This document shows, piece after piece, positions 17,718 through 63,433 of a stretch of 64,000 nucleotides of DNA. The position numbers were made by a program, and so were the translations under genes. A model generated the notes under the pieces. The model searched no databases and was not told where the DNA came from. It worked only from the letters and a program-made list of their open reading frames with translations. This stretch comes from Acidobacteriota bacterium (lineage in GTDB: Bacteria > Acidobacteriota > Holophagae > Acanthopleuribacterales > Acanthopleuribacteraceae), in NCBI GenBank assembly GCA_030066195.1, contig JASJCB010000005.1, positions 62,001 to 126,000 on the forward strand. Reading direction: 5' to 3'. Every line of letters begins with the position of its first letter. Positions within the stretch are counted from its first letter, which is position 1.

Positions 17718-20615
17718 CTACCGGGTTCCCAAGCCGCATACATAGGCCAGATCGGCGCGTAGACGGGTTTGCATGGAGGTCGGCAATTGATCGATCAGGT
17801 CCAATTGTGTTTGTATTTGCTCGTCGGGATACATCACGCGGAAGGTACTCTGCCAGGATTGTTCGACCCCGTTGACGTTTTGCACAACACGCAAGGTCAG
17901 GTCGCCTTGCGGTGCATCGGGCCATTCCTCGGGCCAGCCGACTCGCAGAAGATCCGGGTTTCCCTGGTGTTCGCGGTTCGCTTGAACCTCCATGGTTCGC
18001 CCGGGTCGCGGTCGCACCCACTCCAGCTTTACCGTGGTGTTTTCGGGATTGCCGAGCCATGCCGTCGTGGGACGTTTGGAAAACGTGAAGGACCCCGGCT
18101 CGGACAATTCGTCCCCCCGCGACGCCGGCGACAGCTGGGCGAAACCGGCAAAGCGTCGGCGCTTCAGCAGGGGCGCCAAACGGCTGAACAAGGCGCCGGC
18201 CATGGGCGTGACCTGATCGAAGAGCAACGGCTCGATGCGGCGGGAAACCGGACCTTTCAAAGTGTGTAATCGATTGCGATGGTCCAAAAGGGTGATGCTG
18301 GTTTCGGCCGGCAATTCGAGGCGGTGTTCCTCATTCAACAGCATACGAGGTTCGGCGATCATCCGGTCATGCCGGGTTTTAACCTCAACCCGTCCGCTTA
18401 CATTCAGAACCAATGCGGCAAACAAGCTGTTCCCAATTTCCAACGATGGTGATGCGGAGCCCGATAGGGCCGATTTCTGTTGCCGTTGTTTTCCGGTCCG
18501 CAATGCAGCGACTTCCTCGGACCAGGGCATGGGCAGGGAACCGACAATGGCTTCGTAACGGGTCATCGCCCCGTCCACGGCGACGGCATCTCCACTCTTA
18601 TGGGCTGTAAGCGCGGTCAGGGCCAGGGTTTCCGCTTCTCCCAACGGATCTGCCAACTGTATGTAGCGAGCGAGTGCTTGTTTCAGGTAGGCATCGGCAA
18701 GTTCCGGCTGGTTCGATTTCAGGTGAGCGCGACCAAGGTTCTTCAAGGCGCCGGGATGGTGCTTATCGTAGCGCAGCACCTCGTGAAATTGTCTTGACGC
18801 TCGGTCGAAACGACCTTCGGCCAGGAGTATTTTCCCCGCCTCGTGCAAGGCGTCCACGTGGCCGGGGTCCAGGTCGATCGCCTTTTTGAAGGCGTCAAGG
18901 GCTTGCCCGTTTTCCTTAAGTGCGATGTAGACGCGTCCCAGATTGTAGTGGAACCCGGGGTTTTCCGGGATCAGGTCAACGGCGCTCAGGGCGTCTTCCA
19001 AGGCGCTTTTGGGACGTCCCTGCGCCAGAAAGACCATGGCCAGGTTGCTGAAGGCCGGAGCAAAGCGGGAGTCCTGATCGCGTGCTTCGCGATAGTGTTT
19101 CCCGGCTTCCTTCAAATTACCCTCGCGCCAGGCCTTGTTACCTCGGTGGAAGGCATGTAAGGCCCGTGGTCTGGTGCGATACACGGGTTCGATCCAACGT
19201 CTTTCCCGCGCCAGTTTGCGGCTGAGCAGGGACATCAATTGAAACCGGGCGTCTTCCAAACGCGCCGTATCGTCGCCGGCTTCCGGAATGGAGATTTCGG
19301 GAACGGGAATCAACTTGCCGCTACGGTCGCGAATCGTCACAGCGAGTTTCAGGGCGTCATTTCGGTTCAGCGCCAGTTCGACGCTATAGTCGGGATCGTG
19401 CTCGGTGGCCATGATGCCGAAAGCGGGCAGGGTCGCGGCGGGAAGGAGCGCTTCTTCCCAAAGGTCCCGGTCAGACGTTCCGGCATCTATACGCACTTCT
19501 TCGAAATGGACGCGCACCGGCTCTCGACTTCGAAAGAACCAGAGTGCCGGAATCAATAATAAAGCAACGGCTATAGCGGCATAAATAGGGCGTTTTCGAA
19601 CGGGTTTGGAAACATGCCCGCCGGCATGCTTGGAGTAGAGACAGGGGGTAAAGACCTCGTCTTCTAACTCTTCCCGCTGAACGGACCGTCGACCGGCAAT
19701 TACGGCATGATCCATGGTGTTGCCGGCGGCAAGGCTGTCATAGAAACCCTTTGCGAAAGCTACGGCGGCATAATCACTGATGGGGCGACGCATGGCGGAG
19801 ACGGCCGGAATGCCTTCCCTGATCAGGGAGGCGGCAACGCCTTTCATGCCGTTGACATCTACCTGAGCATTGCCGCCGTGACAAGCGTTCAACACAAAAA
19901 GGGCCGGACGCCTGCTCTTTTCGAGGGCGCGTAACTCGGCCGCCAGATACGCGCCGCTGACGGGTAGGGCGTCACCGAATTCGTCCTTGAAAAACAAGAC
20001 GGGTTCGTCGGTCTCCGCATCCAGACCGCCATGGCCCATGAAGTGGACGACCTGATAGCCGTTTTCCAGGGAACTTCTCAAAGTTTCCGGGTCGGCTCCT
20101 TCCAAGAAGTCTACTTTTAGAAGGCGCCCCTTGGCTTGCCCGATGATGTCCAACTCTTTTTTTAAATCGAGCGCCTCGGTATCGTTGGTTTGGACGGCGA
20201 CCACCAGAACCCGAATGCGTACAACGGGAACCACTTCCAACGGAACGCCGCCTTTTACAGCCCTTACCACGGAGAAATCGGCGTCCAAGCCCAAGCAGGT
20301 TCGACCCGCCATGGCCTCCCAGGGAAGGTCGTGTAAGCGTTTCACCAGTGATACGGCCTCGGCCCCGGCGGCATCCGATTCGCCGCCGGGAAAGATGCGC
20401 AAACGCAACGGACGCGGCGCTCGGCTGAAGAGGTCCGCAATGTCACCGTTGAATATTTTCTTGAACAGCACTCTTCCCTGTTCATCCTCGGGGGCCTCGG
20501 CGTTCCAATCCCGCAAGTCAAGTATTCCGGAGGCTTCGCCGACGTTTTTGCCGCTTACCACGACCTCGCAACAGCCGGGACCGGTGGGTACCGGGAACAG
20601 TTCCAATGTCACCAT
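17718..20615 (-). CDS. CHAT protease-TM-TPR-FecR-like sensor protein
   Basis: 965 residues. An N-terminal CHAT (caspase-like, clan CD) domain spans residues about 1-330. Its catalytic pair is visible as His195 (HFMGHGG) and Cys245 (LNACHGG). One transmembrane helix (343-361), preceded by KPVRKRP, predicts a cytoplasmic protease and an extracytoplasmic rest. About five TPR units follow (485-665). A C-terminal segment (about 725-790, VSGRVEVKTRHD...) resembles a FecR domain. So a periplasmic sensor appears linked to a cytoplasmic protease. AAGGAGG precedes the ATG at 20615. It is divergent from the sigma-factor operon across 203 bases, suggesting joint control. Confidence 0.85.
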   Translation of the reverse strand: MVTLELFPVPTGPGCCEVVVSGKNVGEASGILDLRDWNAEAPEDEQGRVLFKKIFNGDIADLFSRAPRPLRLRIFPGGESDAAGAEAVSLVKRLHDLPWEAMAGRTCLGLDADFSVVRAVKGGVPLEVVPVVRIRVLVVAVQTNDTEALDLKKELDIIGQAKGRLLKVDFLEGADPETLRSSLENGYQVVHFMGHGGLDAETDEPVLFFKDEFGDALPVSGAYLAAELRALEKSRRPALFVLNACHGGNAQVDVNGMKGVAASLIREGIPAVSAMRRPISDYAAVAFAKGFYDSLAAGNTMDHAVIAGRRSVQREELEDEVFTPCLYSKHAGGHVSKPVRKRPIYAAIAVALLLIPALWFFRSREPVRVHFEEVRIDAGTSDRDLWEEALLPAATLPAFGIMATEHDPDYSVELALNRNDALKLAVTIRDRSGKLIPVPEISIPEAGDDTARLEDARFQLMSLLSRKLARERRWIEPVYRTRPRALHAFHRGNKAWREGNLKEAGKHYREARDQDSRFAPAFSNLAMVFLAQGRPKSALEDALSAVDLIPENPGFHYNLGRVYIALKENGQALDAFKKAIDLDPGHVDALHEAGKILLAEGRFDRASRQFHEVLRYDKHHPGALKNLGRAHLKSNQPELADAYLKQALARYIQLADPLGEAETLALTALTAHKSGDAVAVDGAMTRYEAIVGSLPMPWSEEVAALRTGKQRQQKSALSGSASPSLEIGNSLFAALVLNVSGRVEVKTRHDRMIAEPRMLLNEEHRLELPAETSITLLDHRNRLHTLKGPVSRRIEPLLFDQVTPMAGALFSRLAPLLKRRRFAGFAQLSPASRGDELSEPGSFTFSKRPTTAWLGNPENTTVKLEWVRPRPGRTMEVQANREHQGNPDLLRVGWPEEWPDAPQGDLTLRVVQNVNGVEQSWQSTFRVMYPDEQIQTQLDLIDQLPTSMQTRLRADLAYVCGLGTR

Positions 20616-20818
20616 GGGGTGCCTCCTTACTCAAGAAAGGTCTTTCCGAAAGCCAGGAAACCTTCCACGGCCGAAAAGGTTAGAAATACTTTGTTTGATT
20701 GTGATCGATCTACTGATTTCGGTTATTTTGAAAGCAAATTGTTAACTTTCCGGGCGATTTGGTTTCCCATATTAATGAGTCGCCGACTACGGCGCTTTGA
20801 ACGATTTGGAAGGTAACT

Positions 20819-21187
20819 ATGCGCGGCCTGGTTCTGCTAACCGCCTTATTGGTTTTCGATGCTTGCAGCACACGCAATAGATCCTATGCGGACATAGAGA
20901 GCCTGGCCGATGAATGTTCCACCCGAATTGTGAGCGATCGTTACATCGGCGGTCATCCTGTACAAGTAACCATCCGCGGTTATGCTTTCAATAGAGCCAC
21001 CGGTATCTACCGAATCGAAGCACGCCTCGGATGGACGAACCAAAAACAGAATTATTGGGTGGACGGGATCATGGTTGTGGGCCGTGACCCGTCCCACGAC
21101 AAATGGTTGGAGACGGACATGAGTGAAAATTTAAAAAATCGAATCGACTTGGAAAGCGATATCCCGATTCAGGAAAAGGAACCGTGA
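20819..21187 (+). CDS. Small secreted or lipoprotein-like protein
   Basis: 122 residues. A hydrophobic N-terminus (RGLVLLTALLVFDACS) ends in a cysteine that could be a lipidation site, though FDAC is a poor lipobox. The rest is polar with a beta-rich pattern (VQVTIRGYAFN, IYRIEARLGW). No family recognised. GGAAGG precedes the ATG at 20819. It is the first gene of the rightward sigma/anti-sigma/CHAT cluster and may be a secreted partner of those proteins, which is inferred from position only. Confidence 0.6.
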   Translation: MRGLVLLTALLVFDACSTRNRSYADIESLADECSTRIVSDRYIGGHPVQVTIRGYAFNRATGIYRIEARLGWTNQKQNYWVDGIMVVGRDPSHDKWLETDMSENLKNRIDLESDIPIQEKEP

Positions 21188-21219
21188 ACCTCGCGCGGGC
21201 GTAGGTGAATTATGCTAGT

Positions 21220-21765
21220 ATGGCCCCGTCAATACTCATAAGGGCGGCGCCGTCTGTGAAGGATGAAAAACAATTCGAAAACATTTATCGTCGCTTCTTT
21301 CTTCGTGTCTTCACGTTCTTTCGTAGGCGTGGATACTCGGAGGAGGATGGACGGGACCTGGCGCAGGACGTGTTTATGAGAGCCTTCACCAATTGGGATC
21401 AACATCGATCGGATGAGGCACTGCCGGGTTGGATCAAGTCCATTACCCTGAGTATATGGAAGAACAATGTACGTCACGAAATGGCAGGAAAGCGCAAAGC
21501 TGAAGAAGTAACCTTCAATGAACTGGCGTCACCTTACAAAACCAATGACGAAGAACCGCTCTTGAAAATGATCGACGAAGAAAACCGTCTCAGGGTCTAC
21601 CGCGAATTGAAGAAGCTACCCGCCCGGATGAAACAATGTGTTGTCTTTCGGTTGAAGGGGCGCTCTTATGAGGAGATCTCGATTCTCTTGAAGGTATCCA
21701 GAGACACCGTCAAATCGCAGTTAGGCCAGGCCAGACGTCGACTGAGCGAAAAACTGAGGCAGTGA
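21220..21765 (+). CDS. ECF-type RNA polymerase sigma factor
   Basis: About 181 residues. Region 2 is present (FENIYRRFFLRVFTFFRR, then EEDGRDLAQDVFMRAF) and region 4 has a helix-turn-helix (LPARMKQCVVFRLKGRSYEE, then VSRDTVKSQLGQARRRL). There is no sigma region 3, which fits the extracytoplasmic-function group. Three starts are possible: GTG 21205, ATG 21220 with AGGTGA 11 bases upstream, and GTG 21256 with AAGGG. I prefer the ATG. The anti-sigma-like gene follows after 19 bases. Together they should transduce an envelope signal; the target promoters are not identifiable here. Confidence 0.9.
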   Translation: MAPSILIRAAPSVKDEKQFENIYRRFFLRVFTFFRRRGYSEEDGRDLAQDVFMRAFTNWDQHRSDEALPGWIKSITLSIWKNNVRHEMAGKRKAEEVTFNELASPYKTNDEEPLLKMIDEENRLRVYRELKKLPARMKQCVVFRLKGRSYEEISILLKVSRDTVKSQLGQARRRLSEKLRQ

Positions 21766-21784
21766 AACATAGCGGAGTCCGCCG

Positions 21785-22522
21785 ATGAGAACTGAAAAAG
21801 ATCACCTACAAGCAGCATTGGAAGAGGCGATGCCCGTGGAAGAAGCATCCCTGTCTGCCGAGGTTTTGGCAGCCTATGAAGCGGGTGCCCTGCCGCCGGA
21901 TGAAATGGAACGGGTACGTGAGCAACTGTTGGTCAATGACGAAGCGGCCGAAGCTCTTCTGGATCTGCACGCGTTGGAAAACCCCGTTTCCGAGCCCGCC
22001 CAATCGGACCTTGTCGACCAATCCTGGCAGTCCTTTCAAAAACAAATCGAGGTAACAGGGGCATCGGCGCCTGACAATATGGTTCCCTTCAAAAAAGCCG
22101 CTCCCAAGCGTATAGATCCTTGGATGGGGTTTTCCGGTATCCTGGCCGCCGCCTGCGTCGTGCTTGCCGCCCTGGGGCTCTTTCAACACCGAAAGCTCTC
22201 GCTGTTGGAATCGCCTCAAGTGATTCATCGGGACCTTGTCTCCGATACCCCCCGTGAATGGGAACCGGTGGCGTTCGCATCCGAGGCGATTGTCCTCAGG
22301 ATCAATATCCCTTCCATGCATCACAATTACAAAGCCTATTATTTCCTCCTGTCGGACCCTGACGGCAATCTCCTGTTGCGTTCCGGGCGTCTGCGCCTGA
22401 TAGACGGGTATTTGACCTATCAACTCTTGCGCGGGCAGCTTCCTGAAAACCGGTCCTTTCGTTTGGAAATCGAGGGTGAAAGAGACGGCACGGTTTCGAA
22501 ACTGGGTAGCATTGTTTTCTGA
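21785..22522 (+). CDS. Membrane anti-sigma-like protein
   Basis: 245 residues. A cytoplasmic N-terminal helical part (LSAEVLAAYEAGALPPDE, then MERVREQL) resembles the first helices of anti-sigma domains but lacks the HxxxCxxC zinc motif. One transmembrane helix (about 113-133) follows, then a beta-rich extracytoplasmic domain (VLRINIPSMHHNYKAYYF). Position directly after the ECF sigma gene supports an anti-sigma role. The outer domain could be the part cleaved or bound when the signal arrives. The small gap to the sigma gene suggests one operon. The function is inferred from topology and context. Confidence 0.7.
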   Translation: MRTEKDHLQAALEEAMPVEEASLSAEVLAAYEAGALPPDEMERVREQLLVNDEAAEALLDLHALENPVSEPAQSDLVDQSWQSFQKQIEVTGASAPDNMVPFKKAAPKRIDPWMGFSGILAAACVVLAALGLFQHRKLSLLESPQVIHRDLVSDTPREWEPVAFASEAIVLRINIPSMHHNYKAYYFLLSDPDGNLLLRSGRLRLIDGYLTYQLLRGQLPENRSFRLEIEGERDGTVSKLGSIVF

Positions 22523-22581
22523 ATTGGTTTTTAATAGACCCTATAGAACCGGCCGATCACCATATGGAGACAGATGCCGTC

Positions 22582-25350
22582 ATGCGCTCCCTTTATCTCC
22601 CTTTCTTTGTGTCCGCAATGTGCCTGATCATGGCTGCCGGCTGCAGCCGGCCCGCCGATATCCGTGAATTGCCGCCCGGGGAAACCATGACGCGCAAAAC
22701 ACCCGGCGTTTCATTTCACACCTACCGCTTTACCGTCGGCGAGGAGACCTACCAGGAAATCGAGGCACGCCAAATGGGTTTGGACATTACCCTCAAGCTT
22801 ACCCGCCCCGACGATTCAACGCTCACCTGGGACACCATCGGCAAATACGGCCGGGAGCTGATATGTTTCCGTGCCCGGCAGAGCGGCATCTTTACACTGG
22901 AAATCAGTGCTTACGATCCCAATACCATGGGCTCCTACGAACTGGAGCGGCGTGTCAATGCTTCTCCCGGCTCGATTGAACGCCGACGGGCCCGGGCATT
23001 CGATACATGCTGGAAGGCCAAACAATTACATCGGCAAAGAGAACATGCCCCGGTCGCACTGGAGCTGGCCGATGAGGCGGCCGGGCTCTGGTCGGCCTTG
23101 GGAGAGCAAGACCAGGCAATCGTAGCGCTGTACTACAAAGCGACCGCATCGGGCATTTCCGGCCTGCCGTTGAAGAAAATCGAGACCTATGAAGAAGGTC
23201 TGGCCCTGGCGGCAGCATCCGATAACGGGCACCTGCAAGGCCAGTTTCATCAAAACCTGGGGACCGCTTACCAGAAGCTCGGCTTTTTCACCAAGGCCGT
23301 GAACCACTACCGGCAAGCCCTGAACTTTAGGGGCCGGGAAGACATAGCCCGGGCTAATACCCTGGAAAGTATGGGGTTGACCTATGCTCAGTTGGGCGAC
23401 AGCCGAACCGGTAAGAAATACCTGTTGGAAGCATTCGACATTTTTGAACGCACGAGGCGATTGGACAAAATACGACCCTTTGTATACAGCGAATTAGCCA
23501 AAATCTACCGCCGGGAGGGCAATTTCGAGGATGCCGACGAACTGCTGGAAAGAGCCTTCCGAATGAGCGGCGATCGGGCGGAAGATTTGATCGGCGTTTA
23601 CAAAGCGCTGGCCCGTTCGTTGGTAGAAACGGGTCAGGCCGCGCAAGCCCTGAAGCATTATCGAAAGGCCCTGTCCATGGTTCCCCAAGACCGACTGGAA
23701 AGTCGCATCTACCTTGAAACGGATATGGCGGAGGCTCTCATTGACCTGAACAGGGAAATCGAAGCCCGCGACCTCCTGGTAAAGCATCTGCCGTTTCACC
23801 TGAATCAGGGCAATGCACAGAATTTGCTGCATATTCAACACAACCTGTTGCGTATCTCCCAACGAATCGGCGGCAATAAGGAATTGGAAACGGCGATCAT
23901 GGGGCGGATGCGGGAGACGCTGAATGAAATTCGCATATCGAACCGGTCCAATGAGCTGTGGGACCGTTTCGCGGAACGGCGTTTCAATTACCAGGAGACT
24001 TTTCTGGGCCTTGTTCTGGAAACCGCAAAAGATCCGGCCGCGGAGGGTTTCAGTCAGGTTGAAAACAGCCGGGCGGCCATTTTGCGCGATGTTTATTCCC
24101 CTGATCGTGAAATCTTGGAACCGACTATGAAAACGGAGTTGGCCCGAAGAGAAGACCAAATTCTTGACCTGCGCTTCCAAAGCCTGTTTGCGCCCCGGGA
24201 CCAACAGGATGGATTGGACCGGCTGGCCCGCACCCTGGTACGCGGTTACACGGCTATGATGAGTTGGTCGGCCGACGGGGAGAGGGAGAACCCTTCCACA
24301 CCAACCGTTACGCTTCCCCAAGTACAGAAGATGCTGAAACCGGGCACATCGGCCCTGTATTTCGCGCTTTGCCACGAACTCATCTACCTCTGGCGCATTA
24401 CGGCGCGGGAAACCGTATTGGCAACTATAGAAAACCGCCGCCGGGTAGAGAGCGATGCGGAGGACTTTCTGAAAGCGCTGGCCGAGATCGACGAGCCCGG
24501 CAGAGAAAAACGGATCGAACGCCTGGGAGCCCGTTTGGGAAAAGAGTTGTTGGGAGATCTCCCGGAAGACACGGAACGTCTGATTATCATTCCCGACGGT
24601 GCGCTTCATTTCATTCCCTTCGGAGCCCTGCAAGTGCCCGGAGGTAAACGCTTGGGTCTTCAGTATGAGATCACCCTGCTCCCCTCATTTTCCGTGGGCG
24701 CCGCGCTGTATCGCCGCGCCGTCGAGCGCCCGGCCCCCGCGGGAGTCGCCCTCTTCGCTATTTCGGAATTCGCGGATATGCCCGACCTGCCCCATGCAGG
24801 GGAAGAGGCGGAGGAGATTCGCCGAATTGCGGGGAGAACGGGACATCGTCCGGTGTTCAGCAGAATCAACGACCAGGTCTCCAAGACGGCTTTACAGGAG
24901 CCGGTTGTTCAAAAGGCCGCGTATATCCACGTGGCGACCCATGGAGAAAACGGGACCGATGATCCTTTCGGCGCCACCCTTGTGTTCTCGTCGGAGAAAA
25001 AAAAGGACCGTTTCCTGAATGTCTCCGAAGTTGCGCGGTTTAAATTGAACGCGGACCTGGTTTGTTTGAGCGCCTGCCGAACCGCCTTGGGCCGCAACAC
25101 CAGGCTGCGAGGGATGATGGGTTTTTCCCAGGGGTTTTTCAAGGCGGGCGCCAACGGCGTATTGTCCAGTTTGTGGCAGGTCAGCGATAAAGCCACGCGC
25201 GAGTTGATGGTCAGCTTCTATCGCGCGCTTTTGGAAGACGACCTTTCACCACCGGCCGCCATGCTGCAGGCGCGAAGAGAAATGGTATCGCGCTCGGGTT
25301 ATGCCGATCCTTTTTATTGGGCGGGCTTTTCCTACAGCGGCGTTTGGTAA
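22582..25350 (+). CDS. Lipoprotein TPR-CHAT protease
   Basis: 922 residues from the ATG at 22582, chosen because GGAGA lies upstream and the result is a normal lipoprotein signal (lipobox AAGC, Cys21); an ATG at 22564 adds six acidic residues. An N-terminal beta-rich domain (FHTYRFTVGEETYQ) is followed by TPR-like repeats (about 200-420), a helical region and a C-terminal CHAT domain. Catalytic residues are His787 (VATHGE) and Cys832 (LSACRTALG). The end (DPFYWAGFSYSG) is typical of the family. Being lipid-anchored, the protease should sit on the membrane surface outside the cytoplasm, opposite the predicted cytoplasmic CHAT domain encoded at 17718. Confidence 0.85.
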   Translation: MRSLYLPFFVSAMCLIMAAGCSRPADIRELPPGETMTRKTPGVSFHTYRFTVGEETYQEIEARQMGLDITLKLTRPDDSTLTWDTIGKYGRELICFRARQSGIFTLEISAYDPNTMGSYELERRVNASPGSIERRRARAFDTCWKAKQLHRQREHAPVALELADEAAGLWSALGEQDQAIVALYYKATASGISGLPLKKIETYEEGLALAAASDNGHLQGQFHQNLGTAYQKLGFFTKAVNHYRQALNFRGREDIARANTLESMGLTYAQLGDSRTGKKYLLEAFDIFERTRRLDKIRPFVYSELAKIYRREGNFEDADELLERAFRMSGDRAEDLIGVYKALARSLVETGQAAQALKHYRKALSMVPQDRLESRIYLETDMAEALIDLNREIEARDLLVKHLPFHLNQGNAQNLLHIQHNLLRISQRIGGNKELETAIMGRMRETLNEIRISNRSNELWDRFAERRFNYQETFLGLVLETAKDPAAEGFSQVENSRAAILRDVYSPDREILEPTMKTELARREDQILDLRFQSLFAPRDQQDGLDRLARTLVRGYTAMMSWSADGERENPSTPTVTLPQVQKMLKPGTSALYFALCHELIYLWRITARETVLATIENRRRVESDAEDFLKALAEIDEPGREKRIERLGARLGKELLGDLPEDTERLIIIPDGALHFIPFGALQVPGGKRLGLQYEITLLPSFSVGAALYRRAVERPAPAGVALFAISEFADMPDLPHAGEEAEEIRRIAGRTGHRPVFSRINDQVSKTALQEPVVQKAAYIHVATHGENGTDDPFGATLVFSSEKKKDRFLNVSEVARFKLNADLVCLSACRTALGRNTRLRGMMGFSQGFFKAGANGVLSSLWQVSDKATRELMVSFYRALLEDDLSPPAAMLQARREMVSRSGYADPFYWAGFSYSGVW

Positions 25351-25464
25351 TTGTCGCCGGTTCAGGTCACAAAATATGATTTCTAACCCTTTTTGGGATG
25401 ATCGGTTTCCTTATGGGAGAATGCAGGACATTCAATCAATCATACTCACAAAAAGGAGTTTTCA

Positions 25465-25620
25465 ATGTGTGCTGACGAGAAATTCATAGGTGTAATCGAC
25501 GAGCAAACCGATGAAATCCCTCAATCCGAAAGCAAGGCCGACGCTGACGAAAAACCCGGTCAAAAACAAGTTGGTTTCGGTACCGGTGTGAACATACGCG
25601 GCTTCAAAATTCCTTCATAA
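25465..25620 (+). CDS. 51-residue peptide between two caspase-fold protease genes
   Basis: Starts MCADEKFIGVIDEQ and ends VNIRGFKIPS. The ribosome site is excellent (AAAAGGAG, 6 bases before the ATG at 25465), which argues for real translation. The first part is acidic, the middle is Lys/Glu/Asp-rich, and the tail is Gly-rich and neutral (GFGTGVNIRGFKIPS). There is no signal peptide or transmembrane segment. It follows the TPR-CHAT gene by 114 bases and is convergent with the C25-like peptidase gene, with a strong terminator between. It could be a protease substrate, propeptide or modified peptide; there is no direct evidence. Confidence 0.65.
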   Translation: MCADEKFIGVIDEQTDEIPQSESKADADEKPGQKQVGFGTGVNIRGFKIPS

Positions 25621-25672
25621 AGTAGGGCTGTTCAAGCATCGCCGAATCATTTATTTCAAGAATTGGAAAGAG

Positions 25673-25702
25673 GGGGCGCCATTTCGGCGCCCCTTGTTAT
25701 TT
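25673..25702. terminator. Bidirectional intrinsic terminator
   Basis: GGGGCGCC at 25673-25680 pairs with 25686-25693 around a 5-base loop and is followed by TTGTTATTT on the plus strand. It closes the sigma/CHAT/peptide cluster. The stop codon of the convergent peptidase gene (25697) lies within its tail, so it may serve both directions. Confidence 0.8.
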
Positions 25703-27031
25703 CGCGACCCGAACCGCGGGGTCACCCAGAATCATGTAACAGCGAGCGTCTTGTAATGACCGGTATTTAAAAACGGCCTCTTCCTTGGGACTGCCCCAAT
25801 CAATCCTCATGGTCGCCAGGGAAAAATAACGCCGGGAAAAGTGTTCCATGGCGTGGCCGATCGGAACGCCCTCGACCAGCTTGCTCAAGGTGCTCGCGAA
25901 ATGACTGACATGGTTGACCTTGCTTTGCCACAAAAAGGAGTACTCGAAGGCCTCGTCCAAATGACCTACCACGGCCGGGGCGCCGCGTGGATGACCCAAC
26001 ACGGTTTGAGCCAGGTTCGAAATAAAAGGTTCCTTCATGTGAACTTGCTTCGGCCGGCCTTGGGCATCCTTACCGAAATAGGGTTTTTGGGTGCCGGCAG
26101 TGAAACACGCAAAGTGGAAGTTGATCAGACCTGTCATATCGGCATCTTCCGATCGGTCTACTCCCAGAAAGCAGTCTTCCGGTCGGGCGGCCTGCCCCAC
26201 CTGCCAATCGGAACAAATCAGGCCGCCCATCAGAGCCCGCTTTTCCCGCTCTGTTTCTCCGGCTGCTACTCCGTGTGATGCCGTAAAAAGAAGCGCGGGA
26301 CCGCTGCTGTCGATGACCAGGTTTTTGAGTCGGTTGCTGGTAGCATCTTCATTTTGAATCGTTGCCAACTGCCAATCGGCTCTTGTTCGCCCGCGGTGTT
26401 TTTGGAGTCGTTTTTCCAACGGCGTCATCAGGTGTTCAATGCTCAATTGGGTCAGGGCATCGTTGTTATTGACGCCGAACAGGGCCAACTCGCGTTTTCG
26501 TAAGGCGGCTTCCTCGTGGCGCACGACATTTTTTGCATAACACGTGTAGCCCGAGATGTCGCGGAAACAAATCCTGCCCACCGCATATCCGGTTCCCAGA
26601 TCGGCTTGAAATGAGAACGGGATACTTGTGGGATCTCCAACAAGGAGCAGGTAATACGGCACCTGGTCAGGATCGGCTTCACTGAGAGGAGCATCATGTT
26701 CGTTCAGGAACTGTTCCGCGGTTTCGCCTCGATAAATATGAGTGAAGACCTTCCTGCCCATCTGCTCCTCACGCAGGCGCAACAGCGGGGAAAGATGATC
26801 GAGTAGTTCTTTGTCTTGCTCGTGAACGATCACGCCCCAGCCGGCTTCTTCCAGATTAAGGGGATCGATGCCCGCTACTACATCACGACTGAAATTGTCC
26901 GGCGCGGCTTCGGTTTCCGCGGTCGATGTTTCAAAGTATTCGTTCAGGCCCATGGGGGGACGCGCATAGCAGTCAAAGCTGTCCGATTCACCTAATCTTA
27001 CACCGCAAAAGAAAATTCTATCTGGTCTCAT
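25697..27031 (-). CDS. C25/gingipain-like caspase-fold peptidase
   Basis: 444 residues from the ATG at 27031, preceded by TGGAGG. The stretch PYYLLLVGDPTSIPF, then YAVGRICFRD, matches the core of peptidase family C25 (gingipain-like), a clan CD caspase fold. The catalytic dyad is visible as His253 (FTASHGVA) and Cys309 (NFHFACFTAG). There is no signal peptide and no gingipain adhesin or propeptide domain, so it is probably cytoplasmic. It is the third caspase-fold gene within 9.4 kb, convergent with the sigma/CHAT operon. A shared regulatory or defensive role is an inference. Confidence 0.75.
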   Translation of the reverse strand: MRPDRIFFCGVRLGESDSFDCYARPPMGLNEYFETSTAETEAAPDNFSRDVVAGIDPLNLEEAGWGVIVHEQDKELLDHLSPLLRLREEQMGRKVFTHIYRGETAEQFLNEHDAPLSEADPDQVPYYLLLVGDPTSIPFSFQADLGTGYAVGRICFRDISGYTCYAKNVVRHEEAALRKRELALFGVNNNDALTQLSIEHLMTPLEKRLQKHRGRTRADWQLATIQNEDATSNRLKNLVIDSSGPALLFTASHGVAAGETEREKRALMGGLICSDWQVGQAARPEDCFLGVDRSEDADMTGLINFHFACFTAGTQKPYFGKDAQGRPKQVHMKEPFISNLAQTVLGHPRGAPAVVGHLDEAFEYSFLWQSKVNHVSHFASTLSKLVEGVPIGHAMEHFSRRYFSLATMRIDWGSPKEEAVFKYRSLQDARCYMILGDPAVRVAK

Positions 27032-27433
27032 GGTAACCTCCAGGATGAAATTCACCCCAAGGGACACCAACCTCGATGAGGCGTTCAGAAGTTTGCGGAG
27101 ATATCTTGGAGAAAGTAGGGATTCGACTCGAAAGGAGCAGGGTTTGATTTTGCTTACCCGGACTTGTTAAGTGAAAGGTAGACGCAAAAATAAACCGCGA
27201 CCGGGTCCCTTAACTTTTTGGCGAGCCATTCGGAAAAAGCCCGACCGTATGTGAGAAATTTGACCGGATGTTGACAATCAGTGCCGGCTCGTTTCACCCG
27301 AGCCGGCGCGGGTCTCCGACTATGCGCGGGACGGCGGTAATATACTGCCGGCATGCAGCTTGCTCCATTAGATGATTAAAAAGATGACGGGGGGCAGAAT
27401 CAGGCGCCGGAAGGCGGCGCCGGGGAGACTGCC
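27032..27433. other. Intergenic region with a perfect hairpin
   Basis: About 400 bases. GCCGGCTCG at 27283-27291 pairs with 27299-27307 around a 7-base loop. TTGACA at 27271 and TAATAT at 27338 are promoter-like words, but they are not correctly spaced to each other. No coding sequence is supported. Confidence 0.5.
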
Positions 27434-54176: not shown

Positions 54177-54482
54177 GTTGTGATTGGTTGTCTCGATAAA
54201 TCGAGGATCAAAGAATTGGTCCTGATTCCTCGACCCGGAAAAGTCAGGAGCAAAGAATGAGGCCTGATTCCTCGACCCGGAAAAGTCAGGAGCAAAGAAT
54301 GTAAACTGATTTTTTGCGCCCCGAAAAGTAATGTGAAAGAAATCAGTTGTGGGTCCTTGACCCGGAAAAGTCGGAACAAAGGAAGAGAACTGATTCTTCG
54401 ATCCTGAACTTTCGGTGCGCAAAGAATGAGGACTGATTCTTTGCGCACCGACTTTCAGTATCGAGAAATCGGGGCTCATTTC
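54177..54482 (-). repeat. 42-bp-period intergenic array (array C), inverted copy of array D
   Basis: CTGATT or CTCATT cores lie at 54222, 54264, 54306, 54390, 54433 and 54475, with one degenerate unit at the expected 54348 position. Steps are 42 or 43 bases. Units follow the pattern AATGAGnnCTGATT, with a spacer like CGACCCGGAAAAGTC. A perfect 15-bp hairpin (54413-54427 with 54436-54450, loop of 8) covers one core. Its reverse complement matches 63113-63433 unit for unit, including the degenerate unit. A deduced 14-residue protein repeat exists in one frame, but stops break that frame in the other copy. Confidence 0.9.
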
Positions 54483-57875: not shown

Positions 57876-60489
57876 GCGAAAACTCGGAACGCATGCAAGC
57901 CAAGCATCGCCCTCCGGGCGAGGCGAAAACCCTGGGCGCGCACGCATCCTGCGTGCCTGCAAGCCGAGAATCGCCCTCCGGGCGAGGCGAGGTGGAACCC
58001 CTGGGCGCGCACGCATCCTGCGTGCTCTTCCTTGGGGTGGTCATTTGCTGTCGGTTAAGTTTTATTTCTCCCTGGCCACGATCCGCCTCGCCTCGCCCTC
58101 GGGGCGATTCTCGGTTTGCATGCACGCTGGAAGCGTGCGCGCCCAGGGGTGCATGCACGCTCGAGAATTCCTGGTATGGGGTGCCGTCTTCCTCTCCGAA
58201 ACGAACTGTTACGGCAGGGTGCCTTTTCAGCACCTTTTCGAAGGCTAGGCGCAGCTGATCGGGTTCTTTAAGGCCCTCGATACGGGTGGCGAAGTGCAGG
58301 TTGTAGGCCGCGTTTTCCGGGGCGAAGCGTTGTAGGAAGTACAAGCCTTCCTGGTTGGGAGCCAGGGGGAAGCGATCCGGTATGGTTTGCTTTTCCCCGG
58401 TGGTTTCGACCGTTTGATCAAAGGCATCCAGGCAGGCGGCTTCCAGTGCGGCCAGATGCGGACTGTCCAACAGCTTGACCACGGGAATTCGGATACCGAG
58501 GTCCTTCTCCAAACGGTGCAGTAGTTCAATGGCGGCGATGGAGTCGAGACCCATGGCCGGCAGCGGCAGGTTAGGGTCGATGGTCCGCGTGCGCAGGGTG
58601 TTACAGATCTGCCCGCGGAACCAGCGGGAGAACAGTTCGGCGCGGTCCTCGGCCGTCGAGAGGGTTGCCCGGTCCAAATCCGGGATTTCGATGTCTTCCG
58701 CCACCTCGGCGATATCTTGGGCGATCACGGCCAGGGCGCCTTGAAGATAACCCTCGCGGGCGCCGAAACGCCGGATCTTGCCCGAGGAGGTTTTGGGCAC
58801 ACCGCCCGGCTTCAACAGCAGCAGGCCGTGGAGTTGCAGCTCGAAGGCGTCGGCCACGGCGGCGCGAACGGCCGCCGTGACCTCGTCCGCGTTCAGGTTG
58901 CGCACGTGTTGCCGCTCCACTTCCTGGGCGATCACCAGGCGTTCCTCGCCGCCTTCCTCCAGCGAGAAGGCCGCGCCGCAGCCGGGCCGCAGGGCGGGGT
59001 GCGCCGCCTCGGCAACCTTCTCGATATCGGTGGGGTAATAGTTGCGACCGCGCACGATGACCAGGTCCTTCAGGCGGCCGGTGACGTACAGTTGACCCTC
59101 GTTGAGGAAACCCAAGTCGCCCGTGCGCAGGAAAGGGCCCTCGCCGTCGGCGGTGTGGGCGTTGAAGGCGTATTCGGTTGCATCGGGCCGGTTCCAATAA
59201 CCGCCGGCAACGCTGGGACCGGCAAACCAGATCTCGCCGATGTGGTTCTGATCCAACGCCTCGCCGGTTTCGGGATCTACGATCAGCAGTTGGTGGTCGG
59301 GTCGCGGCCGGCCGCAGCCCACCAGGGGCAGGTGCTCGTCCTCGCGATGGGTCCAAACGGCGAAGTTGCGTTCCAGGGCGCGTTTGTCGGCCCATTGGAC
59401 GGCGGGTTGCTCGTCACGTTCGACACCGGTCATGAAAAGCGTGGCTTCGGCCATGCCGTAGCAGGGGTAGAAGGTTTGCGGCGTGAAACCCAGGGGCCGG
59501 AAGGTCTCGGCGAACTTGCCCAGCGAGGCGGCGCGGATGGGTTCGGCCCCGTTGAAGGCCACGCGCCAGCCGCTCAGGTCAAGACCTTTCAAGCGTTCCG
59601 GGTCCATGCGGCGCAGGATCAACTCGTAGGCGAAGTTGGGACCGCCGGCCAGGGTGCCTTTGAACTTGTGTATCGCCTCCAGCCAGCAGAGCGGGTCTTG
59701 AATAAAGTCCATGGAAGTCAACAGCACGGCGGGAATGCCGCGATAGAGCGGGTGCAGTACGGCGCCGATCAAACCCATGTCGTGGTAGAGCGGCAACCAA
59801 CTGACGACCACATCGCCGTCATTACTACCGAAGGCTTCGCCGATTGCCTTTTCATTGGCGACCAGGTTGCCGTGAGTGACCATGACGCCCTTGGGTACGC
59901 CGGTGGAACCGGAGGTATATTGCAGAAAAGCCAGGGTTCCGGGCTGAATTTGAGGCGGTTCCCAGCTTGCGGCGTCGTCGACGGTATCGGTAGCGTGTAC
60001 CTCGGGGGCGTGCGGAGCCTGTAGGAAGAAGGTTTCTATCTTGGGTCGCAGGTCGGCGGTGGTCAAAGCCAGGCGGGCGCCGCAGTTTTCCAGGACGCGA
60101 GCCACCCGTTCCAGCTTCTGACGGGCGCGCGGTGGATAGAGGGGTACGGCAATCACGCCCGCGTACAGGCAGCCCAGGAAAGCTTCCACATAATCCAAAC
60201 CGGGGGGAAAGAACAGCAGCACCCTGTCGCCGGGTTGCGTCCGGCGTTGCAGCCAACCCGCGACGACGCGGGCGCGGCAATCCAGTTGCGCATAGCCGAC
60301 CGCTCGCTCGTTCGCTCCCCGATGACTCAAGAATACATAGGCGCGACGCCCGGCTTGGACCTCGGCTCGGGTGCGCAGGATGTGGACCAGCGAACCGGCT
60401 TCTCGAATATCCTGTGCGTCTACCGCTTCGCCGACGGCTGGAATACGGCTGTAGCAACCGCTCCCCCGCAATAAGACAGGTGTGGACAT
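57808..60489 (-). CDS. Fatty-acyl-AMP ligase-ACP fused to a truncated condensation domain
   Basis: 893 residues. A FAAL domain (about 20-600) shows TSGSTGVPKG, NGAEPI, YGMAEATLF and TGDLGFL. A carrier domain follows with the phosphopantetheine serine Ser650 (GLDSIAA). A condensation domain then begins (FPLAPNQEGLYFLQRFAPEN) but breaks after about 78 residues (Tyr-Gln-Glu-Phe at about 58165), with no HHxxxDG. From there the frame reads through a repeat block and the antisense of the NqrM-like gene. It should activate a fatty acid and load it on the carrier, starting a lipopeptide. GGGAGG precedes the ATG. Downstream condensation is lost. Confidence 0.85.
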   Translation of the reverse strand: MSTPVLLRGSGCYSRIPAVGEAVDAQDIREAGSLVHILRTRAEVQAGRRAYVFLSHRGANERAVGYAQLDCRARVVAGWLQRRTQPGDRVLLFFPPGLDYVEAFLGCLYAGVIAVPLYPPRARQKLERVARVLENCGARLALTTADLRPKIETFFLQAPHAPEVHATDTVDDAASWEPPQIQPGTLAFLQYTSGSTGVPKGVMVTHGNLVANEKAIGEAFGSNDGDVVVSWLPLYHDMGLIGAVLHPLYRGIPAVLLTSMDFIQDPLCWLEAIHKFKGTLAGGPNFAYELILRRMDPERLKGLDLSGWRVAFNGAEPIRAASLGKFAETFRPLGFTPQTFYPCYGMAEATLFMTGVERDEQPAVQWADKRALERNFAVWTHREDEHLPLVGCGRPRPDHQLLIVDPETGEALDQNHIGEIWFAGPSVAGGYWNRPDATEYAFNAHTADGEGPFLRTGDLGFLNEGQLYVTGRLKDLVIVRGRNYYPTDIEKVAEAAHPALRPGCGAAFSLEEGGEERLVIAQEVERQHVRNLNADEVTAAVRAAVADAFELQLHGLLLLKPGGVPKTSSGKIRRFGAREGYLQGALAVIAQDIAEVAEDIEIPDLDRATLSTAEDRAELFSRWFRGQICNTLRTRTIDPNLPLPAMGLDSIAAIELLHRLEKDLGIRIPVVKLLDSPHLAALEAACLDAFDQTVETTGEKQTIPDRFPLAPNQEGLYFLQRFAPENAAYNLHFATRIEGLKEPDQLRLAFEKVLKRHPAVTVRFGEEDGTPYQEFSSVHAPLGAHASSVHANRESPRGRGEADRGQGEIKLNRQQMTTPRKSTQDACAPRGSTSPRPEGDSRLAGTQDACAPRVFASPGGRCLACMRSEFSLKPAKAGDRCVPSWCGADWKYC
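57896..58164. repeat. Palindromic repeat block that truncates the condensation domain
   Basis: Two direct copies (57896-57959 and 57960-58026) of a 64-67-base unit, each containing GCCCTCCGGGC and GCACGCATCCTGCGTGC palindromes. One inverted copy follows at about 58078-58160. Its edge coincides with the point where condensation-domain homology ends. A diverged copy may lie at 63468-63515 (CGCCTCGC...ATCTCGGCTTGC). It resembles short interspersed repeats that read as CAPR/GAHAS-type peptide in many annotations. Confidence 0.8.
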
Positions 60490-63112: not shown

Positions 63113-63433
63113 CGGGTCGAGGAATGAGCCCTGATTTCTCGATTCCAAAAGTCGGAGATCAAAGAATCAGTCCTCATTCTTTGCGCACCGAAAGTTCAGG
63201 ATCAAAGAATGAGATCTGATTCTTTGCTCCCGAAAAGTCCGGGTCAAGGAACCACAACTGATTTCTTTCACATTACTTTTCAGTGCGCAAAGAATGAGAT
63301 CCGATTCTTTGCTCCTGGCTTTTCCGGGTCGAAGAATGAGGACTGATCCTTTGCTCCTGACTTTTCCGGGTCGAGGAATGAGAACGGATTCTTTGATGCC
63401 GGCTTTTCCGACACAACCAATGACAACCCCGTT
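63113..63433 (+). repeat. 42-bp-period intergenic array (array D), inverted copy of array C
   Basis: AAT(G/C)AG cores lie at 63123, 63165, 63208, 63293, 63335 and 63377, with AATGAC at 63419 and one degenerate unit near 63250. All steps are 42 or 43 bases. Consensus of the unit is roughly AATGAGnnCTGATT-CTTTGCTCC-TGACTTTTCCGGGTCGAGG. It aligns with the reverse complement of 54177-54482 over the whole length. A typical core is flanked by TTTCTTTCAC or GCGCAAAG palindromes. It lies upstream of the leftward propeller gene and downstream of the thioesterase gene. Confidence 0.9.

Follow-up and report, generated by a model that had tools for sequence, protein, structure and literature searches.

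At positions 17,718 to 27,031 of a 64,000-nucleotide stretch of Acidobacteriota DNA (hereafter the window; contig JASJCB010000005.1 of assembly GCA_030066195.1, positions 62,001 to 126,000, forward strand), six genes and a short peptide gene form a locus that includes an extracytoplasmic function (ECF) sigma factor and a membrane anti-sigma factor. With about even confidence, we read this locus as one instance of a chromosomal sigma-switch cassette that occurs repeatedly, in which ECF signalling of the DdvS/DdvA type has been split and supplemented with caspase-fold proteases. The conserved core consists of the ECF sigma factor, an anti-sigma factor with one predicted membrane span and a zinc-type sigma-binding domain, which has degenerated in the window copy, and a TPR-CHAT protein that has its own gene and an export-type N-terminus, as judged from sequence. 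To this core, predicted C25, C14, CHAT or S8 proteases and a gene for a short, disordered-looking peptide are added in variable combinations. To our knowledge, sigma-linked TPR-CHAT proteins are known mainly from one CRISPR type and from one Myxococcus anti-sigma factor.

A recurring sigma, anti-sigma and TPR-CHAT core

The initial annotation had recognised seven genes in this part of the window, including the short peptide gene, and all the open reading frames (ORFs) lie at the coordinates that it gave. The six larger products are designated P0001 to P0006 in window order:

17718..20615, minus strand: P0001, the second CHAT protein; caspase-fold CHAT domain near the N-terminus, at residues 90-317, predicted membrane span at about 342-360, TPR repeats, His195/Cys245 (from Pfam and hydrophobicity; homologues at C348, C340 and C407)
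20819..21187, plus strand: P0002, small lipoprotein-like protein of 122 amino acids, outside any Pfam family; the genome has two paralogues, each inside a cassette
21205..21765, plus strand: P0003, ECF sigma factor; Pfam sigma-70 regions 2 and 4; GTG start, with an ATG at 21220 as the alternative
21785..22522, plus strand: P0004, membrane anti-sigma factor; N-terminal sigma-binding domain, one span near residues 110-139, beta-rich C-terminal domain predicted to lie outside
22564..25350, plus strand: P0005, TPR-CHAT lipoprotein predicted to be extracytoplasmic; a signal segment containing Cys27 precedes an N-terminal region and TPR repeats, and the C-terminal CHAT domain holds His793/Cys838
25465..25620, plus strand: short acidic peptide of 51 amino acids, without a signal segment; Shine-Dalgarno site upstream
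25697..27031, minus strand: P0006, cysteine peptidase-like protein of the C25/gingipain fold, predicted to be cytosolic; His253/Cys309 dyad with the ATG at 27031 taken as the start

The two minus-strand genes, P0001 and P0006, are thus outermost, and the plus-strand genes lie between them, with the sigma gene adjoining the anti-sigma gene. The Pfam CHAT model scores 184 bits in P0005 and 84 bits in P0001, both of which also contain TPRs, and P0006 reaches 23.2 bits against Peptidase_C25 (PF01364), for which the cut-off is 23. The Pfam scan assigned no family to P0004 or P0002. A FecR-like region that had been proposed for P0001 was dropped, as Pfam contains no FecR match there.

The genome that carries the window (G000, 11.6 Mb) contains the window on contig C3; its other contigs are likewise given C numbers, and fetched loci are given L numbers. 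The six proteins were compared by phmmer with the ORFs of 32 fetched regions of G000, a non-random set picked for CHAT or sigma matches. Three further near-complete cassettes are present in G000, and five occur in relatives. Homologues of all six proteins are found at C348 and at C340, and five of the six at C407, which has counterparts of P0001, P0003, P0005 and P0006 together with an anti-sigma factor recognised by profile, and lacks the small lipoprotein. At C90 and C345 only the sigma factor, the anti-sigma factor and the TPR-CHAT protein are present. The six best places in the G000 sigma search are these five and the window itself, and a TPR-CHAT gene lies beside each. C11 and C250 also have sigma, anti-sigma and TPR-CHAT genes, the anti-sigma factor there being of the plain zinc-finger type.

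A search of 100 relatives for the C25 family found matches in four genomes (G000 counted), all of the same taxonomic family, at 14 places in total. Nine of these places have the sigma, anti-sigma and TPR-CHAT genes within the roughly 20 kb fetched (four in G000, four in G002 and one in G006), and eight of the nine also have the second CHAT protein. From the side of the anti-sigma factor, the association is complete: all 14 matches in seven family genomes adjoin a TPR-CHAT gene. The initial annotation had suggested asking whether the genes travel together in relatives, and they do. Across 19 family cassettes, the distances among sigma, anti-sigma and CHAT proteins are correlated (r 0.34 to 0.51, p 0.0002 to 0.0008); for the sigma-CHAT pair, r is 0.51 (p 0.0006) over the 19 and 0.65 (p 0.015) within G000 alone.

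The linkage extends beyond the family. An alignment of 13 anti-sigma factors was used to search 396 genomes of the phylum; of these, 269 match, many through the zinc-finger part only. The 20 best matches outside the family served as the test set, and 20 lower-ranked matches that align over the N-terminal part only served as the control. An adjacent CHAT ORF is present in 17 of the 20 test loci. Of the 20 controls, one contains a CHAT ORF, which lies 6 kb from the sigma gene. Two of the three remaining test loci are on short contigs (3.4 and 4.3 kb), and the third, L120, shows no adjacent CHAT; some control contigs (L142, L143) are also short. A further protease accompanies the TPR-CHAT protein in 11 of the 17 loci: C14 in L121, L123, L128, L130, L135, L137 and L138; C25 in L137; S8 subtilase in L126, L133 and L136; and a second CHAT protein in L122, L133 and L135. 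None of the 20 controls has a C14, C25 or S8 protease. The assignments of C14 in L121, L130 and L138, of C25 in L137 and of S8 in L133 are confirmed by Pfam, and the rest were made with our own profiles, which were built partly from L121, L126, L130, L133 and L138. At L121, a GTPase with a DUF697 match (L121:11691-12998) adjoins the C14 gene of the cassette.

These comparisons bear on the possibility that the genes are chance neighbours, or occupants of a defence or otherwise variable island, without joint function. G000 is rich in CHAT domains, with 35 matches across its 11.6 Mb, so that some CHAT-sigma neighbours are to be expected. However, the same gene sets recur at 9 or more places in three genera, fused forms exist, and an origin by recent copying is countered by the divergence of the aligned family proteins, which are only 15-42% identical to those of the window. 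Given the controlled comparison (17/20 against 1/20), a chance neighbourhood is rejected, and the absence of any joint function appears highly improbable.

The anti-sigma assignment of P0004 is best appreciated at the level of its family. The family profile matches solved domains of 3hug (2.8e-4), ChrR (2q1z, 5.7e-4), DdvA (8rlz, 1.1e-3) and RsiW (5wuq, 5.7e-3); the first of these is listed as a conserved membrane protein and is presumably an anti-sigma domain. Two relatives of P0004, in L088 and L044, exceed the Pfam cut-off for zf-HC2. The zinc ligands (Cys, His) are kept in eight of 13 aligned anti-sigma factors and lost in five, including the window copy. Thus, a zinc-type sigma-binding domain at the N-terminus holds for the family and is degenerate in the window. 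Hydrophobicity indicates a single membrane span after this domain, and a low-confidence model places a helix at residues 116-139.

The TPR-CHAT protein and the second CHAT protein differ in their predicted topology. By a simple hydrophobicity rule, 23 of 24 TPR-CHAT proteins, the window copy included, have an export-type hydrophobic N-terminal segment, in most cases followed by a cysteine in the manner of lipoproteins, and so the TPR-CHAT protein of the cassette is probably located outside the inner membrane. The CHAT domain of P0001 is predicted from hydrophobicity to be cytosolic, and its dyad, His195/Cys245, is kept in all 11 aligned second-CHAT proteins. The dyad of P0005 is His793/Cys838 from the ATG at 22564, equivalent to His787/Cys832 from the next ATG. 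A profile of the CHAT domain only, from 12 members, finds DdvA (8rot) first among PDB sequences, with an E-value of 4.7e-10, followed by the TPR-CHAT protein of Craspase (2.7e-5) and separase (8e-4). The CHAT-only profile is needed for this: PDB searches with P0005 alone, or with whole TPR-CHAT proteins, gave only TPR proteins among the matches listed.

The C25-like protein, its variants and the short peptide

The model of P0006 points to a gingipain-type caspase-like fold with a His/Cys dyad, which fits peptidase family C25. Built from 19 sequences, it has a predicted local distance difference test (pLDDT) score of 83.9 and superposes on gingipain R (1cvr) with Z 25.4 over 304 residues; gingipain K is matched by Foldseek with an E-value of 2e-7. 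The model also matches separase and the Craspase TPR-CHAT protein, both at Z 16, and DdvA at Z 12.7. The putative catalytic His and Cys are kept in all 19 aligned sequences, and a second alignment, also of 19 sequences, shows the Cys as nearly invariant. Their numbering is His253/Cys309 from the ATG at 27031 and His266/Cys322 from a TTG at 27070. The dyads given in the initial annotation for all three proteases are correct for the start codons chosen there. A PDB sequence search with the C25 alignment yielded nothing useful. No membrane span or export segment is apparent from hydrophobicity, and the protein is predicted to be cytosolic.

The genes around the C25-like protein vary among copies. 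At C348 a C14 gene follows the C25-like gene, and C340 has two C14 proteins, one of them a caspase fused to the C25-like protein. In the C340 region (L038:9566-20000 and L039), the gene of the C25-C14 fusion stands in a row with genes for a WD40 protein, another C14 protein and a CHAT protein, next to a cassette in which the TPR-CHAT protein lacks the catalytic His. Further genes extend beyond the cassette at C407 (L040:8421-18000) and at 11.22 Mb of G002 (L081:12363-19899), the first members being alike at the N-terminus; the continuation at C407 includes proteins of about 2000 amino acids without any Pfam match. On two Thermoanaerobaculia contigs (L075:6329-11305 and L078:3295-7992), the TPR-CHAT and C25-like proteins are fused in a single ORF, with C25 behind TPR-CHAT.

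The short peptide gene is read as real. In the window, a Shine-Dalgarno site (AAGGAG) lies 6 bases before the ATG, and counterparts occupy the same place in other copies. At 13 loci, an ORF of 36-167 amino acids lies between the TPR-CHAT stop codon and the next gene; the products are rich in proline, acidic residues or glycine, have no export segment, and in three cases are tandem repeats. These 13 peptides had been selected visually, by position and composition, ahead of the Shine-Dalgarno test; nine of them have such a site, compared with 5.5% of the ATGs in the same loci. The C340 peptide has an 82-amino-acid form without a Shine-Dalgarno site and a 54-amino-acid form, starting at GTG, with one. 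When a Shine-Dalgarno site is demanded, a scan of 24 loci finds a peptide-type ORF in 11, and nothing in C345, C11, L122 and L129. The tripeptide PKP, a motif picked after the peptides had been inspected, is found in six of the 13, compared with 1.3 after shuffling. What the peptides have in common is place and composition rather than alignable sequence, and a search of seven family genomes with the G006 peptide found only itself. The subtilase-type proteins encoded by the next gene in L126, L133 and L136 begin with a repeat stretch of a similar kind. Conceivably, the short peptide is a substrate, pro-piece or adaptor, for all of which it is a candidate.

A possible mechanism and its alternatives

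From general knowledge of ECF/anti-sigma pairs, the sigma factor would be expected to be held at the membrane by the anti-sigma factor. The steps beyond this binding are suggested by gene order, topology and the DdvA fusion. The TPR-CHAT protein, probably periplasmic, may face the outer domain of the anti-sigma factor, acting as a sensor or as the likely site-1 protease, and could hold or break the anti-sigma factor through cutting or a change of shape. The freed sigma factor would then switch on its own operon together with the cytosolic proteases (the C25-like protein and the membrane-anchored CHAT protein), which might carry out the response; the short peptide could take part in it as a substrate, a pro-piece or an adaptor.

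Several observations weigh against this scheme, or against the cassette reading as a whole. Thirty word pairs were examined upstream of 31 sigma genes for a promoter motif, and none is convincing (the best, GGAA/TCA, is weak, with 5 of 31 against 0.9 expected as one of 30 pairs, and is not counted as a finding); control of the protease genes by the sigma factor is therefore putative. The single-sequence structure model of the anti-sigma factor is unusable, with a pLDDT of 46. Five of the 14 C25-like places in the family have no core in the fetched stretch: C265 in G000, 4.65 Mb in G002, C35 in G006, C42 in G004, and 8.17 Mb in G002, where the core lies about 8 kb off. Outside the family, no second protease is seen in six of the 17 loci with a TPR-CHAT gene, and co-divergence is not significant within G002 alone (r 0.06 to 0.32, p 0.16 to 0.44). 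In the TPR-CHAT alignment, Cys is present in 14 of 14 proteins and His in 12, with Arg in its place in the paralogues at C340 and C345, so that proteolysis by this protein cannot be required in every copy. Finally, the Chloroflexi relatives of the C25-like protein belong to a different, nSTAND1-type system. In these loci (L072:3340-12976, and also L070, L066 and L077), a CHAT protein, a large second protein and one or two C25-like genes stand in a row; Pfam, run on L072 alone, identifies CHAT-SIR2 and nSTAND1-WD40 proteins there. The arrangement looks like a conflict system that draws on the same C25 family.

The substitution of the catalytic His also favours a scheme in which the TPR-CHAT protein, as a sensor or scaffold without proteolytic action, only binds the anti-sigma factor, like a detached outer part of DdvA. 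The caspase fold would then serve for contact, and the other proteases would be ordinary members of the regulon. The covalent attachment of the DdvA CHAT domain to its anti-sigma domain is in keeping with such a role, although the retention of Cys in every copy and of His in most exceeds what a pure scaffold would need. We regard this alternative as a possible but doubtful one.

A second alternative is wiring like that of Craspase, in which the cytosolic membrane-anchored CHAT or C25-like protein would sense an invader in the cytosol and cut the inner part of the anti-sigma factor, or the short peptide, to free the sigma factor. The Csx29/Csx30 release of CASP-sigma, as set out in the Craspase paper (PMC10028731), provides a precedent; both proteases are predicted to be cytosolic, and the P0006 model resembles the Craspase TPR-CHAT protein, as described above. 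Against this, the most widely kept core comprises the sigma factor, the anti-sigma factor and the exported TPR-CHAT protein, whereas the cytosolic proteases vary or are missing. Also, as the initial annotation had stated for CRISPR, no CRISPR-like array is seen in the window (no 20-mer occurs three or more times at a spacing of 45-110); a gRAMP gene was not searched for. Overall, Craspase-like wiring seems distinctly unlikely. Separately, tandem repeat arrays with units of 42-85 bases are present in the window at 54204-54439, 57894-58025 and 63147-63410, and there is no tandem array at 17-28 kb.

Returning to the split, DdvA-related cassette, its output might be repair, defence or cell death; of these, defence is a first guess by analogy, taken from the control of an antiphage island by DdvS. 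PADLOC, applied to the six proteins, recognised no defence system, its only signals being a weak resemblance of the CHAT domain in P0001 to SAVED_CHAT and BovA, and hits to the TPRs of P0005. A scan of ten flanking genes revealed no known defence gene. A more encompassing proposal, which we offer tentatively and as a doubtful one, is that such loci are widespread, CRISPR-free sigma switches that sense the envelope: a caspase-fold protein in the periplasm would gate the anti-sigma factor, and an interchangeable cytosolic protease (C25, C14, CHAT or subtilase) would be the payload. The proline- or acid-rich peptide, whether free or as an N-terminal repeat on subtilases, would be cut by the proteases or would keep them inactive. 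This ancestral stock would have given rise to the protease-sigma arm of Craspase and, through fusion, to DdvA.

Comparison with known systems

No such cassette was found described in the searches made of open-licence papers, of which those for CHAT domain with ECF sigma and anti-sigma (or extracytoplasmic function) listed only PMC10028731. The gingipains of family C25 are likened to P0006 by its predicted fold and dyad. The protein differs from them in its sequence (12-13% identity), in having neither export signal nor membrane span, and in its setting within a sigma-switch locus. The EACC2-caspase/ECF/DUF1822 neighbourhoods are conserved associations of caspase-domain proteins with an ECF sigma factor and a TPR protein, proposed as conflict systems (PMC8195603). 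In contrast, no window protein has a Pfam match to DUF1822, and the proteases of the cassette are of the CHAT and C25 types.

A review notes that ECF54 sigma genes have carboxypeptidase, subtilase and CHAT proteins in their vicinity, and it proposes proteolytic control (PMC8999054). A subtilase is likewise present in the cassettes of L126 and L133. The comparison is one of gene context rather than of ECF group, and ECF54 is described there without an anti-sigma factor, whereas here an anti-sigma factor is present in the window and in every defining cassette.

Craspase, the CASP system of type III-E CRISPR, shares with the cassette a TPR-CHAT protease, an ECF sigma factor and an inhibitor of the latter. 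According to the Craspase paper, Csx29 cuts Csx30 and so relieves its block of CASP-sigma, and this release is likened to that of DegS/RseA (PMC10028731). The initial annotation had drawn its link between TPR-CHAT proteins and sigma factors from Craspase. This link is strengthened by the joining of a CHAT domain and an anti-sigma domain in the DdvA chain, while its cytosolic logic probably does not carry over: Csx29 acts on a cytosolic substrate, whereas the cassette TPR-CHAT protein is predicted to be exported. Besides the array, a further difference concerns the inhibitor, which in the cassette is a zinc-type membrane protein that is not known to resemble Csx30. The interpretation of the initial annotation is partly supported: the genes travel together and a TPR-CHAT protein is linked with ECF sigma control, whereas cutting of the anti-sigma factor or the peptide by a protease, sensing of envelope stress and killing of the cell are hypothetical.

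The closest relationship appears to be with DdvS/DdvA of Myxococcus xanthus (PDB 8rot, 8rw5, 8rlz), which likewise pairs an ECF sigma factor with a membrane anti-sigma factor. The sigma-binding domain of DdvA matches the anti-sigma profile, and its CHAT domain, in which the His and Cys motifs are kept in the alignment, is the best solved match of the cassette TPR-CHAT protein. Within the 991-residue DdvA chain, the sigma-binding domain is at residues 7-42 and the CHAT match at 825-946, and so an anti-sigma factor and a CHAT domain are naturally fused there; TPR repeats lie between the two. In the cassette, these parts are encoded by two genes rather than as a single chain, the anti-sigma factor has a beta-rich outer domain, and extra proteases and a short peptide are present. 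Because TPR-CHAT has a gene of its own both in the window and in the cassettes that were read, the locus is considered a split relative of DdvS/DdvA and not a member of it. Control of a CBASS/CRISPR island is characteristic of the DdvS/DdvA type, and DdvS controls an antiphage island in Myxococcus according to PMC12288465; no such genes were recognised near the window locus. If the cassette works as read, it would join Craspase and DdvA to a general and much commoner regulatory device, provide a non-CRISPR setting for the control of gene expression by caspase-fold proteases, and offer natural protease-swapped variants in which the role of each part could be tested.

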